64,000 nt of DNA from contig NPFB01000012.1 in NCBI GenBank assembly GCA_014084085.1, positions 1,007,429 through 1,071,428 of the forward strand. The letters run 5' to 3'. Positions 25,634 to 63,880 of the stretch are shown in pieces (within the stretch, counting starts at the first letter, position 1; each line of letters opens with the position of its first letter). The translations under genes were made by a program, and so were the position numbers. The notes beneath the pieces were generated by a model. It did not search any database. It saw nothing but the letters and a program-made list of their open reading frames with translations, and had not been told where the DNA came from. Source of the stretch: Hondaea fermentalgiana. Taxonomy: Eukaryota > Sar > Bigyra > Thraustochytrida > Thraustochytriidae.

Positions 25634-28176
25634 TCAAGACGATGGCACTTGAAACGGAAATCGCGTTGGGGATCGGCGCGTGAGCGCGAGCCGGACCTGC
25701 TCGGCTGCAAGGTCCAATGAAAACTCCTCTAGAATCGTCGCACCGTCGTTCGAGCGAAGTGTGATGGAACGCGAGGCCACTTCCTTGTCCCCAATCACAC
25801 CAATCACACTATAAGGCGCCTGCTGGGCGTTCCGCACGCGCTTCGCCAGTGAGTTGTTCGAAGCATCAACAGTGACGGTGAGTCCTGCTGCGCTGGGACT
25901 CGTCATAAAATCAGCCTCTGGCGCAGCACCTGCGCGAAGCTGCTTGGCAGCAGCTTCGGCAGCCTCGACATGACTTTTGTCGACAGGCAAAATTGCAACC
26001 TGTCGCGGGCTCAGCCAAAAAGGCCACTTTCCATTCGTGTGCTCGAGCAGAATAGCCAGAAACCGCTCCACAGACCCGAGCACGGCGCGGTGAATCATCA
26101 CCGGCCGCTGGCGCGAACCGTCCGGAGCAACGTACTCGAGGTCGAAGCGTTCTGGCAGCTGAAAGTCGAGCTGGACAGTGGCGCACTGGTGCGAGCGCCC
26201 GAGGGCATCGGTGACAGAAATGTCGATCTTCGGGCCATAAAAAGCCGCCTCGCCGGGATCCCGGATCCACGGCAATTCTGTAGCCTCCAAGACCTTTTCT
26301 AACGCATCTTCGGCTCGGTCCCACTCCTCGTCGCTTCCGATGCTCTTGCCATCGAGGGGTCGCGTTGAAAGGGCCATCTTGAAATTGAATCCAAAGAGAT
26401 CCTTGTACACGGTCTTGACAAAGTCGATGCACGAAAGAATCTCCTCCTCAATCTGCGAAGGCAGACAAAAGATATGCGCGTCATCCTGGTGAAAGCGACG
26501 CAAGCGCGTGAGTCCGCCAAGTGCCCCCGAGGCTTCGTTGCGGTGGAGCGCTGAAAAGTCAGCAATACGCACAGGCAGCTCACGGAAAGATCTGTGCGTC
26601 TGTGCGAAAAGAACGCAGTGGCCCGGACAGTTCATAGGCTTCAATCCCATTTCGTGCTCGTCTTCGTCCGACTCGCGGCTCGAGGTCGGTCCATGTGCGC
26701 AGGCACCATGGTTGTGCGCAATATCAAGGTCGGGGTCCTCCGTGACCGTATCGGCCTCTGTTTCTGAAGCGTTTGCGGGCGGAAGGTCTGGGTCAGCGTG
26801 TCCCGACACACGAAACATGTTCTCCTTGTAGTTTTGCAAATGGCCCGAGCGCTTCCACAGCGAGCTTCGGTACATGAGCGGGGTCATGACCTCCTCGTAT
26901 CCCCGCGCGGCATACTGGTCGCGCAGCATGGCCACGAGGCGATTGTAGATGATGGTTCCATGCGGCAATACAAACGCGCTTCCAGGGCTGACGGGATCAA
27001 AGGAAAACAAGCCTTGCTTACGGCCAAGCACGCGATGGTCGCGCTCCGAGGCCATTTTTGTACGCTCCGTCCAATCCAAGAGAGAGGACTTTTCCGGAAA
27101 CGAGATGCCATAGACGCGCTGCGCATGATAGCCGTCATTGAGTCCTGCGGCGCGCAGAACCGTGTGTCCGGCGCGCCCGAGCGTCGCAGCGCTCGGCACG
27201 TGCGGTCCGCGGCAGAGGTCGATAAAATCCCCTAGGCGGTACGCCGTGAGACGGGCGTCGGGTCCCAGACGCTCAATCATTTCCAGCTTGCGTTCATTGT
27301 AGCGAAACATTTCACGCGCGACATCTGCGGGCAGTTCCAAACGTTCGAATTGCGGACTGCCCTTGAGCGCCTTGGTGGCCTGCTTGTTGATGTTTTTGAT
27401 GTCTTCCGGCGTGATTCCGTGGGCGCTCTGTGCGTCCTGCTTGTAGGCAAAGTCGTAAAAGAAGCCTCCTTGTGCAGGTGCGACGAGACTATCGTCTGCG
27501 CCGGTCGTCTCAGCCTCGAGCGCGGGACCGTCATCGAGCATGATTTCCCCATGCCCGAGCTCGATCTCGAGGGCGTGGCCCAGAACATGCGCACTCGAGT
27601 GCCAAAAAGTCGCGCGTCCCTCGGGCGAGCCAAAGTCAAGACCTTCCACCTGCACCACACCGGCGCCAGCCTCGATTTCCTCTTCTCGGCCTTCAAGGAC
27701 GCTGGCGAGCGGGCTCGCGAGGTCTGCAAGTACGCTCGTGGCTGCGTCTTTGCCAAAGCTCACACGAGCGACCACGAGGTCCTTGGCCTGCATCCACGGC
27801 AGGTCCTGGGGCGCCGTCGTCGTCGCGTCAACGCCTTGCGCAACCTCGTGTTCGCCTGGCGCGCGCACCTCGCGGACGTGCAGTGGTGGTAGCACGGGCC
27901 CGCGCTCCTCTTGTCTGGCGCGCTCGGCGTCCCAGACGGCCTTGCGATGGTCCACGATGGCCTTGGACGCCTCGCTGCGTCTTCTGCGCTCCTCCGCGGC
28001 CGCCTTCTTGTCGCCGCCGCCGCCGCCGCCGCCGCTCGCGAGCCNNNNNNNNNNNNNNNNNNNNNNNNNNNNNNNNNNNNNNNNNNNNNNNNNNNNNNNN
28101 NNNNNNNNNNNNNNNNNNNNNNNNNNNNNNNNNNNNNNNNNNNNCGCGCCAGCGCCAGCCGCGCCTGCGCGAGCAT
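25634..28176 (-). CDS. Threonyl-tRNA synthetase (start interrupted by gap)
   Basis: Class II synthetase that charges tRNA-Thr. The body is complete on the minus strand from about 27,900 to the stop at 25634. In order: editing (N2) domain with HSSAHVLGHALEIE and GFFYDF, CRGPHVPS; catalytic core with GLKPMNCPGHC (zinc Cys), motif 2 RNEASGALGGLTRLRRFHQDDAH, motif 3 MIHRAVLGSVERF; C-terminal anticodon-binding domain starting PRQVAILPVDKSH. About 45 acidic residues are inserted just before the zinc-binding Cys motif. Only a shortened TGS-like region is visible. The N-terminus crosses the 100-N gap; the only plausible start seen is ATG 28176-28174 (MLAQARLALAR), whose frame relation to the body cannot be checked. 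One gene may serve cytosol and mitochondria. Confidence 0.9.
28045..28144. other. Assembly gap (100 N)
   Basis: Exactly 100 N inside the 5' coding part of the ThrRS gene, next to a CCG run that encodes a poly-Gly stretch on the minus strand. Confidence 0.99.
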
Positions 28177-32379: not shown

Positions 32380-33303
32380 GCCGTCTTTTTCCGAGGATTC
32401 TTTTCTCACCCTCCTCTTTCCCCAGTTTGCTGACGCCATTCATTGCAACATTTCACAAGAGCGTTCGTGTACAAGGGAAGGGAAGGAAAATAGGGGCGAG
32501 AAAGCGAATAAGTCATGCAGTGTTGGGGCACAACTTTTCCAGCATTGCGCGGCTCGAGGACATGGACCGCGCCGCTCTCGATGGAACACTTACTTTGAAC
32601 TGTGAGGCCAGAGACATGTTTTCGATCTGCGGGCCGCGGACCCATCTTCGTCTCGTGTACTCATCGTACACATGCCTCCGTGTGTTCTGCCCTTTTTCCC
32701 AGGCGCGTAAAAACTGCAATCTGTCTGCTACGGTCGTGTGACCATCAGCCATCGGACAATTGGAAAAAAATCAACAACCTTATCACCATTGATCGACATA
32801 ACTCTACCCTTTTCTCTTTTTCTCCTTTTCCAATTTTCTTTTCGCAAATCTACTCCTGAGATTGATATTATTGTCGTCGTGCGACCGATTCGCGCGCCCG
32901 CTCCCGCGCCCGCGGTGTCATTTTGCATGCATGACACTTGAGCGAGCATTATCGGCTCGCTCACTCGCTCTTCGTCTGGCTGGTTGGCGGCGCAGACCCC
33001 GATTGACTCGGACCCGACCGATCGATTGATTGATCGATCGATTCGCGCCGACGTAGGCTCGCTCGCTGGAGCAGCGACGGCTTGGCGTGGGCTTGAGTGC
33101 GCGTGTGTTTGTCAAGAGTATTTCGAAGAGCTGCGCAGAGTAGAGCCGCGCAAAGCAGCGCAGCGAAGAGGAGGCAAGTGCAGACCTTCGAGATTGGAGA
33201 GTCGAGGCGCTGCACGTGCGCGAACAGAACCACTACGCTTCGGCCCTCGCAAGGAAACTCTCTTCGAAGTACGAACGAGGCAACGCATACACAAACAGAG
33301 AAG
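32380..33303. other. Intergenic region
   Basis: 3' region of Rab6 and promoter/5' UTR of the AAMP-like gene. It includes a degenerate GATC/GATT tract (33018-33042) and several small overlapping frames with no recognisable content. Confidence 0.5.
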
Positions 33304-34968: not shown

Positions 34969-36282
34969 TTAATCTTCGTCGGTATCACGCGCACAGCGAA
35001 ATCCCAGATTTTGAGAGCTGCTGTCGGCCGTGTTGTGCGAGCGCGCATCGACGCGATAGCGATAGCAGTACGAAATGTGGCACATGTAAGAGCCGCCCTT
35101 TTTGACGCGCTCGACAGCAGGATCGTCAATGCGGCCGGCAATCTCTACCTGGAAGTCGGTCAACATACCGCCGCCCGGCGCTGTGAGATGATGGCGCGTG
35201 TTCCATGCGTCAGCAACCCACTCCCACACGTTACCAATGATATTTTTCAGCCCAAACTTGTTCTGGGCGCCAAAGCTATCAACTGGACTCGCCCAGACGT
35301 AGCCGTCCTCTCCAGTATTGTTTTCAGGAAAGTGACCCTGCCAGAGATTTGCGCGGTGTGTTCCATTTGGCGTCATCTCGGCGCCCCAAGGAAAAAGCAC
35401 ACCCTCGAGATCGCCCTTGGCAGCGCGCTCGAACTCTGCTTCGCGGGGCAGACGCTTTCCTGCCCACTCGCAGTACGCGCGAGCGTCGTTATGTGTGACG
35501 TGCGTCACGGGATAGTCGAGCTTGTCCTGCAAGACGACGTCGCTGTCTGGGCCGTCGGGATGCAGCCAGTTCGCGCCATTCACCGGCGCCCACCACGGCA
35601 CCTCCTGAACTTGAACCGTGATTTCCTCGCGAAGCTTTTCGGAGAGGGTCCCAAGAAAGCAAAAGGACCAACCAAAGCTTTCGGCTTCTGTAACGTATTT
35701 TGTGTCGAGCACGAACTCGGCAAACTGTCGATTCGAGACCTCCATCTCGTCGAGCTCGAACTCGCTGAGTCGGACACGACGAGCGGGCCCTTCGGCGTCT
35801 CCGGGAATTTGCGGGTCATCTGTGCCCATAGTGAACTCACCCGCTGGGATAAAGACCATGGGCATGGGGCGCACAAGGTCAGGATCCATGTGGCCGGCCT
35901 CGATGTACGCTTGCAGTTCGTCAAACACAGGCGCGGAGTCAAGCTCGTGTTTCTCAGCTGAGGTGGTTTTCACGGAAGACTCTTGCTGCTGCGCTGTTTT
36001 CTGCTTGTCTTGTTCGAGCATGTCTCCGAGGGCAGACGCTCGGTTCTGCGCATCCGCGCATCCGCACGAGGCTTCCGCGTCGGCTTCTGCGTTGCCTTCG
36101 GCGTCTGCATTTCCCTCCTCGTCGTCGAATCTTGCCGCGCATCCGCCTTCGACGTCGTCTCTTGCTCCAGTCTCGATCGCCTCAGCAGCGTCGACTGCCG
36201 CAAGCGCAAGCGCGAGCACGAGCACCGCCACAAGCACGAGGGCAAGGGCCCGAGCTCGTCGAGTCGGCGCGAAGCGTCCCAT
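34969..36282 (-). CDS. SUMF1: Formylglycine-generating enzyme (sulfatase-modifying factor)
   Basis: 437 residues from ATG 36280-36282. An N-terminal signal peptide or anchor (RALALVLVAVLVLALALAAVDA) leads to an acidic Ala/Asp/Glu linker with CGCAD, then the FGE domain: PMVFIPAGEFTMGTD, DEMEVSNRQFAEFV, VTHVTHNDARAYCEWAGKRLPREAEFERAAKG, GNVWEWVADAW and the active-site segment GGSYMCHISYCYRYR. The two active cysteines are at about residues 401 and 406, with the same spacing as human Cys336/Cys341, followed by the conserved ARSHNTADSSSQNLGFRCA. FGE converts the active-site Cys of sulfatases to formylglycine in the ER, using oxygen and copper. Full catalytic set present. Confidence 0.96.
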   Translation of the reverse strand: MGRFAPTRRARALALVLVAVLVLALALAAVDAAEAIETGARDDVEGGCAARFDDEEGNADAEGNAEADAEASCGCADAQNRASALGDMLEQDKQKTAQQQESSVKTTSAEKHELDSAPVFDELQAYIEAGHMDPDLVRPMPMVFIPAGEFTMGTDDPQIPGDAEGPARRVRLSEFELDEMEVSNRQFAEFVLDTKYVTEAESFGWSFCFLGTLSEKLREEITVQVQEVPWWAPVNGANWLHPDGPDSDVVLQDKLDYPVTHVTHNDARAYCEWAGKRLPREAEFERAAKGDLEGVLFPWGAEMTPNGTHRANLWQGHFPENNTGEDGYVWASPVDSFGAQNKFGLKNIIGNVWEWVADAWNTRHHLTAPGGGMLTDFQVEIAGRIDDPAVERVKKGGSYMCHISYCYRYRVDARSHNTADSSSQNLGFRCARDTDED

Positions 36283-57410: not shown

Positions 57411-58545
57411 CTAATTATCCGGAATGATAATTTCGATCGCCTTGTCAGGCAATTCGGGCTTGGACGTATCGCTGAGATCACAAGTGCAAAGGGGGGACTG
57501 GCAGCAATTCTTCTTACATTTCTCCGATTCGCAAGTTCCAAACTCCTCTTGCATGCAGTTGTTGCATCCCGGTGTGGACCCAACGCCATTAATATTCCAG
57601 CATTGCGCGCTCGACTCGGTCTTGGCGTTCATGCAGCCGTATGCTTGACCCTTGTACTTGGGGCACCAAACGCATCTAATGAAGAATTTGAAAAAGAGGG
57701 TGAGTGTTCTACGTTCCTGAGAGTTTTTGATTGATGAATGAATGAATGATTGAGTGAAACAGGGATTAGAAAACGTACTCGTAAAAGTCATTGCTCTTTC
57801 CTTCGCATCCACTCGGCGTGTTGTCAAGCGGGTTGCTGCACGGAGACTTGTAGCAGCCCGGAGATTTGACGCCATTGATTTGTTCGTTTTGTTCTTGCGT
57901 GTACCAGACGCAACGTCCGCCAGTGTTCTGGATTGTACAGAGACCGTTGTTGATGCTACGTTCATTGAATTTGTCAAAATGAGGGCGGTTAGCCACTTCT
58001 TCTACGTCCACGTTTTGAAAAAGCGCAAGCGTGAGACCTACCGGTAACAGGGGTTTCTGATATTATACGACTTCCAAAGCAGAGGTTTGTTTTTTCCACA
58101 TGGGCAAAGAGAATTTGTTAGATGACATATAACCTTCGCGAGTAGTGTACAGACATCAAGAGCCGAGGTCAACGTACGGCATGCACTGATCGGGGACGTC
58201 GTCGTTGAGATGCCACCACACACAAGCGAGATTAGAAGCACATGCATCATAATTCTGCATGTCTGCGGCCGAGCAGTCGACGCCAGTTTGACCTTTTACC
58301 TCCGTGCTATTGATACAATCCGAAAAGGTTGTTGCCATTTCCATGTTGTAGATTTCCTCGCAAACAGGGGGCACAGAACTGGGCTTGCTGCGACGACGAC
58401 GACGACGCCCTCTGGCGCTCGAGCTCAGCGAGTTGAGCTCGTTCAGGGTCTCGAGAACATTTTGGCGCAGGCTCGCCGCCTCCACGCTGACCGTGAGCGC
58501 GACCAAGGCCAGCGCCAGCAGTAAGAACACCTTTGCGCACAGCAT
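57411..58545 (-). CDS. Secreted cysteine-rich protein, paralog A (4 exons)
   Basis: Exons 58545-58178, 58056-58042 (15-nt microexon), 57955-57779 and 57675-57411 give 274 residues; all three introns are phase 2. Donors are GTACGT, GTAGGT, GTACGT and acceptors CAG, TAG, TAG. A signal peptide (LCAKVFLLLALALVALTVSVEA) is followed by RGRRRRRRSK, a possible proprotein-convertase site, and then a domain with more than 20 cysteines. Repeated CxW modules are seen: ACVWWHL, GRCVWYTQEQ and ECVWCPKYKGQAYGC, and the end is Cys-rich (KKNCCQSPLCTCDL). The exon junctions are supported by the exact same structure in paralog B, which reads through in the same frame with high identity. Function unknown; likely extracellular or cell-surface. 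Confidence 0.85.
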
Positions 58546-58702
58546 TTCGCTCGTCGATTCTTCTCTTACGCCTTTGCTCGGGCTCGCCTCCTCCGTTTGC
58601 GCGCTCTTCTCAATGTACCTCTCGGTGTCTGCCGCTCGGCCAGTCACCAGGTTCGCGGTTTGTAGATGTGCTGCTTGTTTGCCTTCCTTCCTTCCTTGCT
58701 TC

Positions 58703-58739
<37 letters not shown>

Positions 58740-59070
58740 CCGAAAGAGAAGATTGCTGCACGCCGCGGCATAGGTTCGAGTATACACCGTAATCTTGTAG
58801 TACACGATCTTTGCAATTTTAACATGTGAACAACGCCCGCAATTTCACTTGCACACACGCCGACGGGGTCCGCGTCCGGTCCACCGACCAACCAACAATG
58901 GCGGTAGGAGTAGATATTCGGGTCGGACGAGCCAACAGACGCGACGGACGCTATTGATCTCTTCACATGGAGCACGCGAGGCCAGTGAAAGGCTCGCGAA
59001 GATGGCTCGAAGACAAGCGGATACTGGGCTTCGTATTTTCGTTTACATGATGTAGTGCTATATACGCTCT
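58546..59070. other. Promoter of paralog A / 3' region of paralog B
   Basis: Contains a TTCC/CTTG microsatellite (58683-58738) about 140 bp upstream of the paralog A start. No gene is seen. Confidence 0.6.
58683..58738. repeat. (CTTC/CTTG)n microsatellite
   Basis: Starts as CTTC and turns into CTTG; a related CTGC tract (60328-60357) lies at the same place upstream of paralog B. Confidence 0.95.
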
Positions 59071-60162
59071 TTAGCGGCCAGAGAGAATGTTGATGGCCAC
59101 CTCGTCAACCCCTCTCTCTCCTTCTGACAGATCGCAGAGGCAGAGAGGGGACTGGCAGCAATTCTGCCTGCACTGGGAGTCTTTGCAGGTGCCAAATTTT
59201 TTCTGCTTGCAGTCATTGCAGCCTGGCAAAGCGCCAGGGCCGTTCACATTCCAGCACTGCGCTTGCGAAGTGCTCTTGGCGTTCATGCAGCCATAGGCTT
59301 GACCCTCGTATTTTGGGCACCAGACGCAGCTGCATCGCGATCATGGTCCAAAAAGCAATACATTTCCGACGACAATGTTAGGCCCACTGCAATAATCTTC
59401 TTGCTGGATTTATCGTCTCGCTCAACTTACCCGTAGAACGCGTCCGACTTGTCAGCACAGCCACTAGGCGTGTTATCAAGAGGATTGCTGCAAGGAGATT
59501 TGTAGCATCCGGGGGCGTTGATGCCACGCACCTCCTTGTTCTGCTCGCGAGTATACCAGACGCAGCGCCCGCCCGTGTTCTGGATCGTGCAGAGACCGTT
59601 GTTGATTCTGTGGAACGCAGACCCTCGAGCAAGTTAGTGGAATGCTGCTTGTTTGTTTGCGAAAGCGTGTATCTGGTGTTTGTTTGGCTCAACGTACCGA
59701 AAGCATGGGTTTCTGGGAGCGTATCGAAATGAAAGTGAAGGAATAGGGAGAGCAAGGTCGCAAGGTTAGTTTTTTTCGTGTGCAAGCGGCAGGCCAAAAA
59801 TACAATCTGCGCAAATGCTTCAGCGTCGGCTGCGCAAGAGTGATCACTAGAACGTACGGCATGCAAAGGTCTTGGCCGAGAAGGTGCCACCAAGAGCACT
59901 CGGGTCGCGAGCTGCAGGCATCATAGTTTTGCAGTTCATCGGCGGAGCAATCGAACTCGTCCTGGGCCAGCACTTCAGCGTCGTTGGCGCACTGTGAGAA
60001 CTGCTCGAGAATGTCCTGCTCGTAGATGAATTCGCAAATTTCCGGAACGCTAGTGGAGTTCGACTTTCGCCTGCGTCTGCGAAGGTTGCGCAGGTGTTGC
60101 GCCTGCGCAGTCACGAGCAGCAAGGCTGCAAGGAAGAGTGAAAGTAAGGCCTGGCGCGCCAT
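59071..60162 (-). CDS. Secreted cysteine-rich protein, paralog B (4 exons)
   Basis: Exons 60162-59858, 59712-59698 (15-nt microexon), 59607-59431 and 59329-59071 give 251 residues, intron phases 2-2-2 as in paralog A. Donors are GTACGT, GTACGT, GTAAGT. Exon 3 is 177 nt in both genes. Signal peptide ARQALLSLFLAALLLVTAQA, then RNLRRRRRKS, then the cysteine domain with ECSWWHL, GRCVWYTREQ and GCVWCPKYEGQAYGC and the end RQNCCQSPLCLCDL. Identity to A is highest in exons 3 and 4 (SPCSNPLDNTPSGC is shared exactly) and lower in exon 1, outside the cysteines. Clearly a tandem duplicate in the same direction. Function unknown. Confidence 0.85.
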
Positions 60163-61707: not shown

Positions 61708-63075
61708 TCAAGATGATGGCGCCATTCCGAGCTCAACAGCTGTTTTCATCCAAAAGGTGCCAATCGGCGCGCATTTCTCGAGACAGCATTGTGTTGTACA
61801 GTTTCGAGTATCGACATTGGCATCAAGCATAGCGCGGAGGTCGTCTTCAGACATGACGGATCCATCAGGCGACACAAATTCTTGGGCGGCATCAGGACCC
61901 ATGTCCACCTTCAATCCAGCTGCTGCGGCTTGCCGCTGGAGAATATTACGACCGACATTGTAGAGTCGGATGTCGTAGAGATTGACGGCGTGCCACCACT
62001 TGGCAAAGTCCAGAAGCTGAGGATCACCAGCCGTATTTTCCTCGAGACGCGCAAGAGCGCTGAGGCCGCCGTGGTTCGTGCCGTGATGTTCTCGAAACTC
62101 ATCGCTGCTATTGCCTCTCCATTGAAGCAAGTCGTGAATGAGCGTGATACTTGTCTCAAAGTGTTCGAGGATGCCAACGACAGCGAAGTCATGCTCGAGA
62201 CGATACCGCGCGATCTCATAGTGTTCATCTGTGAGCCTCCCGAACGGGACTTTGGCACAGGCTGGTCCACACACTGCCCGGGTTTGCCAGTTGTCGGGTA
62301 CATTGAGCGCAAAGTATAAGCGAATGGAACTCGCAGAGTTCGTAGATTTGCTCACACGACGGAGATCTTGCCACGAGGGCATTCCGTCGCTGTAGTGGCG
62401 TCGCCGCGAAGCGAAGGTACCAGGCGAGTTCTTGACGAGTTTGAGCACCTGTTCAAAGGCCATGTGAAAGTGCGACTCCATCCGTGCAAGCGGATCGCGC
62501 AGCATCGTCATGTATTTGATGTCGTTTCGCTCCGGAAGCTGTGCCGGCAAATACCATTCGCTAGCGAGAAAGGTGAGCCTGCGCCGCTTGTCTTTGTGAT
62601 ATTTGTCAATTAGACCTGCAAACTCATCGGGAGACCCGTTGGAGAATTTAATGCGCTCCTCGCCGCCATACATGTTGCAGTTTGTGTCACGCACGGCACG
62701 TTCTCGCTTGCATGCTAGATAACACATTGTCGTCCCGCCACTCTTGTGAATGTGCAGAAAGACGGCGACGAACTTTCGCTTGAAGACCCCTCGTTCGGCA
62801 GGGTCGCGCTCGCGATTCGCGACGAGTAGCGTTTCAGCGTTGTTCGCGAAGTTGTTGTCTTCGTCGTGCGCGTCAAGAGCGCCCTGGCCGCTCACGAGGT
62901 GCTCGAGCCCGACGAATCGCGTGAAAAGCGCTACGGCCACGAGAACGCTGAGAGCGACGGTGGCGGCGCACGACGCGAGGCGCCATGTCCTCGCGGTCGC
63001 CGGCAGCGGCCGTCGCTGCGTCTGCTGACACGCGTCGCTCTCTGAGCGCGCCGAGACCGGGCTCCGCACGCGCAT
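61708..63075 (-). CDS. Golgi-type carbohydrate sulfotransferase (type II membrane protein)
   Basis: 455 residues from ATG 63073-63075; the frame continues upstream without ATG. A short cytosolic tail, then one signal-anchor helix (CAATVALSVLVAVALFTRF), then a lumenal catalytic domain. The PAPS-binding sites are visible: 5' phosphosulfate loop VAVFLHIHKSGGTTMCYLAC and 3' phosphate site MTMLRDPLARMESHFHMAF. This is the layout of the heparan/chondroitin-type sulfotransferase superfamily that moves sulfate from PAPS to sugar hydroxyls in the Golgi. A Cys-rich C-terminal tail (NCTTQCCLEKCAPIGTFW) is shared with the partial gene next door. The sugar acceptor is unknown; sulfated galactan of the cell wall would fit a thraustochytrid. 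Confidence 0.87.
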   Translation of the reverse strand: MRVRSPVSARSESDACQQTQRRPLPATARTWRLASCAATVALSVLVAVALFTRFVGLEHLVSGQGALDAHDEDNNFANNAETLLVANRERDPAERGVFKRKFVAVFLHIHKSGGTTMCYLACKRERAVRDTNCNMYGGEERIKFSNGSPDEFAGLIDKYHKDKRRRLTFLASEWYLPAQLPERNDIKYMTMLRDPLARMESHFHMAFEQVLKLVKNSPGTFASRRRHYSDGMPSWQDLRRVSKSTNSASSIRLYFALNVPDNWQTRAVCGPACAKVPFGRLTDEHYEIARYRLEHDFAVVGILEHFETSITLIHDLLQWRGNSSDEFREHHGTNHGGLSALARLEENTAGDPQLLDFAKWWHAVNLYDIRLYNVGRNILQRQAAAAGLKVDMGPDAAQEFVSPDGSVMSEDDLRAMLDANVDTRNCTTQCCLEKCAPIGTFWMKTAVELGMAPSS

Positions 63076-63880
63076 CGGCCGCGCACTTGGTCCCGGAACG
63101 AGCGCCCCGTCCGCGACGCAGCCTGGCTCGCGCAGGCTGCGGCCGGAGCGGCCCCGGGCCTCGCGCCAGCGCCTTCGCGCGCGCCGCCTCAGCCGGAGCG
63201 GGCGGGCGGGCTCGCTGCGGCCGCGGCGGCTCGCGTCTGCATGGTCTGCGGCGAGGTCTGGCAGCGCAGTCCAGTCCAGTCCAGTCAGGGTGCACTGCGG
63301 ATCCACTACCAGCTGGGAGCAGAAGAGCCGCTCTCAGAGCGGCCGGGACACTCTTTGGAGGGCCGAACAAAGGCCGCGCTGGCTGTTCGCGGCCGGCGGG
63401 ACGCTTGGATTGGACGGGCGGTGCAGAAAGGAAAAGGTAAGTTGTGACTGTTCTCGTCTTGATTGAAAGTGAGGGTGCTTGGCTCGTCGATGGAAATCGT
63501 GATTTTGTTGACCTTGCATGTGAGGATCGACGAACAACGTGGCGGAAGGCGATGAAGCCGTCGTTGATGTCAAGCAGGTAGACAGGCAGGCAGGCAGGCT
63601 GATAAGGAAACCAGTGAAAGACGTCAACACCCTCGCATGAAGACTTCCAACAAAATGATTGCACAGTCTGCTTTGCCAGCCTTGCGATCCAGACTCACAG
63701 ATTAAAAAGGGCGCCTACAACAAGCAAAGGAGGCCAACTCGAACGGGAAAACCAACACTACAAATTTCAGTTGACAGGTTAAAAAAAAATGTGGGCGAGT
63801 TGTTTTTTTTTGGGGGGGGGGGCAGGCAGCGACAAAGTAAATGTGCAAAGCCCTCTGGCCAGAGCGTCTTCAAAAGAGGT
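63076..63880. other. Intergenic region between the two sulfotransferases
   Basis: GC-rich start (5' region of the first gene), a CCAGT repeat (63269-63287), an AGGC repeat (about 63581-63599) and a T/G run (63803-63822). No gene is seen. Confidence 0.5.

Follow-up and report, generated by a model that had tools for sequence, protein, structure and literature searches.

Two neighboring genes of the marine thraustochytrid Hondaea fermentalgiana, which code for small secreted proteins rich in cysteine, each appear to carry a second exon of only 15 nt. Is so short a segment a real exon and, if so, is it an optional piece that adds or removes a cysteine, or a fixed part of the protein? The genes, called A and B here, are both encoded on the minus strand of a window (the whole stretch of 64,000 nucleotides that was analyzed) on contig C14 of the 36.0-Mb genome. 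Our preferred reading, to which we assign a probability of roughly 0.87, is that the 15-nt exon is real and normally always included. It would code for an N-P-C-(F/Y) segment that contributes one cysteine to the family's core pattern, with two short introns flanking it that were likely present before the genes were duplicated.

Both genes consist of four exons. Exon 1 of gene B (59858-60162) begins with a start that by eye resembles a signal peptide, followed by an arginine-rich stretch and the first cysteines, and it ends ...TGC ATG CC in phase 2. Intron 1 (59713-59857; 145 nt, GTACGT...CTAAC...CAG) leads to the microexon (exon 2, 59698-59712), which codes for N-P-C-F plus split Pro and Arg codons. 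Intron 2 (59608-59697; 90 nt, GTACGT...CTAAC...CAG) is followed by exon 3 (59431-59607; 177 nt), and intron 3 (59330-59430; 101 nt, GTAAGT...CTAAC...CAG) by exon 4 (59071-59329), which includes the stop codon. In gene A, exon 1 (58178-58545) likewise has a signal-peptide-like start (by eye) and an arginine-rich stretch, and ends ...TGC ATG CC in phase 2. Intron 1 (58057-58177; 121 nt, GTACGT...CTAAC...CAG), the microexon (exon 2, 58042-58056; 15 nt, N-P-C-Y plus split Pro and Arg codons), intron 2 (57956-58041; 86 nt, GTAGGT...CTAAC...TAG) and exon 3 (57779-57955; 177 nt) follow. Intron 3 (57676-57778; 103 nt, GTACGT...TAG) is the only one of the six introns that lacks CTAAC where the others have it, 15-80 nt before the 3' end, and exon 4 (57411-57675) includes the stop codon. 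All three introns are in phase 2 in both genes. The last junctions (59431/59329 in B and 57779/57675 in A), which the preliminary description had not given, were set in this analysis, and with them the coding sequences are open over 251 (B) and 274 (A) amino acids.

Length-limited protein searches of the database, part of which scored about 8000 candidates, found neither A nor B among the annotated Hondaea proteins, so there is no annotator's model behind the gene models presented here. When A and B were joined as a single query in search of a fused annotation of the locus, four proteins were returned, none of which corresponds to the A/B locus. Elsewhere in the window, on the minus strand, an open reading frame upstream of gene B (61711-63306) has a weak match to galactose-3-O-sulfotransferase (24.8 bits against a cut-off of 27), and another (34972-36282) strongly matches the sulfatase-modifying factor, or formylglycine-generating enzyme, family (PF03781, E 2.2e-67). 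Runs of exactly 100 N at 2768-2867 and 28045-28144 are probably assembly gaps; artificial open frames span them.

The microexon of gene B (59712-59698 in the direction of transcription) reads AAACCCATGCTTTCG, with CCCAG before and GTACGT after it, and that of gene A (58056-58042) reads AAACCCCTGTTACCG, between ATCAG and GTAGGT. Inclusion gives C-M-P-N-P-C-(F/Y)-R-I-N-N-G-L-C; skipping gives C-M-P-I-N-N-G-L-C, still in frame. The preliminary description had placed the two exons at these positions, with these sequences, the four encoded residues and their one cysteine, phase 2 on either side, a skipped translation that stays in frame minus that cysteine, and CAG acceptors with GTACGT/GTAGGT donors in both copies. 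Our analysis reproduced each of these points. In A and B alike the segment is an internal exon of no more than 15 nt with canonical splice sites, as a microexon should be. It resembles the switch-like class in length, being a multiple of three whose skipping keeps the frame.

A string of this kind might also arise by chance. AG and GT are common, the frame is open on skipping, and an AG-N15-GT match could lie within one long intron, with exon 1 always joined to exon 3. We therefore compared candidate parses against a profile HMM built from 11 relatives; A and B were left out, P0002 and P0003 were omitted as copies, and P0008 and P0009 were not included. The candidates were internal exons no longer than 60 nt, in frame and free of stop codons, with AG and GT-or-GC borders, at least 30 nt from the exon 1 donor and the exon 3 acceptor. 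With this donor and acceptor held fixed, the 15-nt exon was the top of 15 parses in gene B (skipping counted), at 97.2 bits versus 77.6 bits for skipping, and the top of three in gene A, at 93.6 versus 80.3 bits. Skipping thus costs 19.6 bits (B) and 13.3 bits (A) of family-profile score, and when the stretch was shuffled base by base 300 times for each gene, the gain was never equalled.

Comparison of the two genes points in the same direction. The microexons are identical at 11 of 15 nucleotides in an ungapped alignment, which none of 2000 shuffles reached, whereas intron 2 aligns no better than its shuffles do. Exons 1-4 each align above all of 500 shuffles (z 4.4 for the 15-nt exon), and with the same aligner 317 and 152 of 500 shuffles reach the observed scores of introns 2 and 3, respectively. 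Intron 1 is weakly similar between the genes (4 of 500 shuffles reach its score), so conservation beside the microexon is not limited to exons. These contrasts rely on alignment-score controls and not on percent identity, as shuffled introns also gave approximately 70 % identity with that aligner. By these alignments, the microexon shows the same kind of conservation as the longer exons, and intron 1 retains a trace of common origin.

The introns that flank the microexon carry CTAAC in both genes, which again speaks against a chance match. The motif lies 15-80 nt from the 3' end in five of the six introns of A and B, compared with a shuffled mean of 0.57 and no round of 2000 reaching five, for a motif that was picked after inspection of these same introns. 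With the shuffle controls of the parse gain and of the 15-nt match, and with an included form that has the cysteine and spacing of all 13 relatives described below, we reject the chance exon as extremely improbable.

Similar splicing signals were seen in other genes of this genome. Seven loci were compared, five of them from eight first inspected by eye, with L047 and L050 added and L053, L066, and L068 dropped. Five have a clear best intron (L063, L064, L065, L050, and L036) with a GTAAGT or GTACGT donor and CTRAC, which in four of them is no more than 80 nt from the 3' end; L031 and L047 have no clear intron. For L036, two single-intron solutions compete, with CTAAC approximately 100 nt from the 3' end. 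The preliminary description had spoken of a genome with few introns. This held for the proteasome family, in which 12 of 14 genes (two C10 rows treated as one gene) carry 182 or more of the 189 domain positions in a single open frame; in the Ras family, several genes are in pieces, for example on contigs C64, C125, C182, C198, and C200. Judged on the proteasome family, the genome is intron-poor. FF domains are found in PRP40, and a match to an FF domain was identified on contig C97. PRP40 is reported as needed for microexons in C. elegans in the available text of PMC8378409.

The relatives of A and B indicate what the exon encodes. Six paralogs in the same genome (L004, L007, L008, L009, L010, and L011) are all uninterrupted across the microexon stretch, and nine relatives (P0001-P0009) came from protein databases. 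Two of the nine, P0002 and P0003, are Hondaea fermentalgiana annotations of L004 and L011 and were counted once with them, leaving 13 distinct relatives. P0003 is contained whole in L011, letter for letter, and P0002 aligns to L004 in two pieces. The part of L004 that P0002 omits is an in-frame stretch of 186 nt that is open in the DNA, starts with GTCCAT, and has no CTRAY motif; it is possibly a false intron. The proteins of this family are secreted and rich in cysteine, and the members found come from thraustochytrids and environmental records. When viral contigs were searched for relatives, 17 stretches fit a pattern, and none codes for one.

The microexon cysteine is kept in all 13 distinct relatives, and 12 residues separate its flanking cysteines in every one of them. 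In A and B the spacing is 12 when the microexon is included and would fall to 7 on skipping. The first microexon residue is N or D in 13 of 13 relatives and the P is present in 11; none of the 13 resembles the skipped form. P0001 (from Mucochytrium quahogii), P0005, and P0008, which have the residues, are accompanied by MMETSP transcript records, these being records other than Hondaea and the comparison one of proteins, not of gene structures. Hence the cysteine and its spacing are conserved in all relatives (13/13) and the stretch is encoded without interruption where the introns are absent (6/6 paralogs), the pattern expected of a constitutive microexon.

The number of cysteines gives a second line of evidence. 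With the signal peptide cut by eye, the mature parts of A, B, P0001, and L004 each contain 24 cysteines, and skipping would leave 23 in A and B. Past the first 25 residues, the number is even (24, 18, or 32) in all 11 relatives with complete N-termini, a count that omits L007 and L009, which are pieces. Whole-protein totals are odd in three of the 13 (P0004, P0006, and L008), each of which has one cysteine within the first 25 residues. The invariance of the microexon cysteine and the even cysteine numbers suggest a structural residue, which is probably disulfide-bonded in the secreted protein.

These observations bear on the proposal, made in the preliminary description, that the exon could toggle a cysteine. 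Inclusion would then be regulated, and the form lacking one cysteine would be either functional or an off-state. The length of 15 nt, the phase 2 on both sides with a frame that survives skipping, and the retention of the exon by both paralogs are all compatible with such a switch. There is also a precedent for a regulated microexon that codes for cysteines in Xlr2 of Trichoderma virens, although there without exon 1-exon 3 reads (PMC11121469, as far as its accessible portion goes). Against a switch, the cysteine and its spacing are those of the included form in every relative, no relative matches the skipped form, skipping leaves an odd number of cysteines and lowers the profile score in both genes, and the stretch is no separate exon in the six paralogs of the same genome. 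We consider the switch very unlikely, and the proposed toggle is not supported by parity, cysteine conservation, or spacing. The more specific version, in which regulated inclusion in Hondaea would turn the secreted disulfide protein off or re-pair its bonds by in-frame loss of the invariant cysteine, and the paralogs would keep their introns for that purpose, seems to us no less improbable.

Constitutive inclusion, in our preferred reading, would work as follows. The 15-nt exon would supply N-P-C-(F/Y) and with it one cysteine of the family core pattern. As the cysteines are even in number, presumably all of them are in disulfides. The flanking introns are short (121 and 86 nt in A, 145 and 90 nt in B) and have ordinary donors, CTAAC, and CAG or TAG acceptors, and the splice sites are likely paired across each intron (intron definition). 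Each short intron would probably be recognized as a unit, and the tiny exon itself would then need no recognition. Background on microexon splicing that bears on this intron pairing is given in the part of PMC8831610 that was accessible. The invariant cysteine, its spacing, and the parity together argue for constitutive coding sequence and not for a cysteine toggle, and we infer from the genomic sequence that the exon is included in Hondaea mRNA. With less certainty, the coding exon was most likely continuous at first and received the two introns ahead of the A/B duplication.

How the introns arose can be approached with the family tree. In a tree of 13 rows, with four of ten inner branches open, one starred, three rows on very long branches, and P0008 and P0009 absent, A and B pair with 86/85 support among uninterrupted members, and the six others from the same genome are uninterrupted. 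One label change was found in 89 % of 200 bootstrap trees. Because A and B pair among uninterrupted members, a single gain would account for what otherwise takes several independent losses. Perhaps, then, the simplest reading of the sequences is that the introns were gained in one episode that preceded the tandem duplication. The reverse history concerns the origin only: the three introns would be ancestral, and the uninterrupted paralogs would have lost them, for instance by reverse transcription of mRNA. Loss may be common in an intron-poor genome, and loss of flanking introns that merges a microexon into a long exon has been described in plants (PMC8831610, in the text available). We regard ancestral introns as a possible history but not the favored one, given the pairing of A and B; the open branches, the long-branch rows, and the two relatives outside the tree mean that the tree is not decisive about the origin. 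An introner (repeat-derived) origin was also considered and rejected, as the many similar genomic copies typical of such introns were not found for intron 1 of A or B. Either intron matched only itself at E values up to 1, with simple repeats and very common words skipped, and a recent intron of the repeat type is therefore not indicated.

The cysteine-rich domain that contains the microexon residues has no clear Pfam name. A Pfam scan of nine members gave no family in more than one member, and scores stayed below both of the cut-offs that were displayed. A PSI (plexin) domain was rejected; PSI_Plexin-B matched one of the nine members and scored 17.9 bits, below the cut-off of 27. Among solved structures there was no match to the family profile at E values up to 1, and the AlphaFold model of P0001, from a seven-row alignment, was poor, with a mean pLDDT of 46.6. 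When profiles were compared for internal repeats, the microexon stretch and the next cysteine stretch aligned end to end, albeit weakly (E 0.0059, probability 6 %). In L009 (G000:C24, approximately 32971-33201, minus strand), a sulfatase match (PF00884, E 3.4e-11) and a PT repeat linker precede the cysteine-rich domain, which is on their C-terminal side.

Coding microexons are known from several systems. Examples from land plants are the exons of 9 nt found in genes for AP2 and invertase (PMC8831610, in its accessible part). The Hondaea case differs in that it comes from a thraustochytrid with an intron-poor genome and a different protein family, and in that its inclusion is deduced from sequence here. 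In Xlr2, a glucose-regulated microexon of 20 nt codes for two cysteines of the Zn(II)2Cys6 domain, according to the portion of PMC11121469 at hand. Both cases come from microbial eukaryotes, and in both a short exon encodes cysteine of a domain built on cysteines. The Xlr2 exon, unlike that of Hondaea, is glucose-regulated, is part of a transcription factor gene, and has a length that is not divisible by three; there is no sign of regulation in Hondaea. Animal neuronal microexons of the switch-like type (described in the accessible text of PMC8831610) share with the Hondaea exon the size class of 3-15 nt (as defined in that of PMC4739763) and a length divisible by three. They are alternatively included, whereas the Hondaea cysteine is invariant in the relatives found. 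Among the matches listed for microexon literature on thraustochytrids, stramenopiles, protists, and oomycetes, as far as their text was available, none reports a microexon in a thraustochytrid gene. The conserved coding microexon is thus of a known kind, and the thraustochytrids are a new lineage for it.

The finding carries a warning that gene models in intron-poor genomes may omit conserved residues. It makes a clear candidate for a coding exon of 15 nt in a stramenopile whose genome has few introns and whose own uninterrupted paralogs reveal what the exon codes for. With two introns placed 15 nt apart, this family may also offer a handle on how microexons are born.
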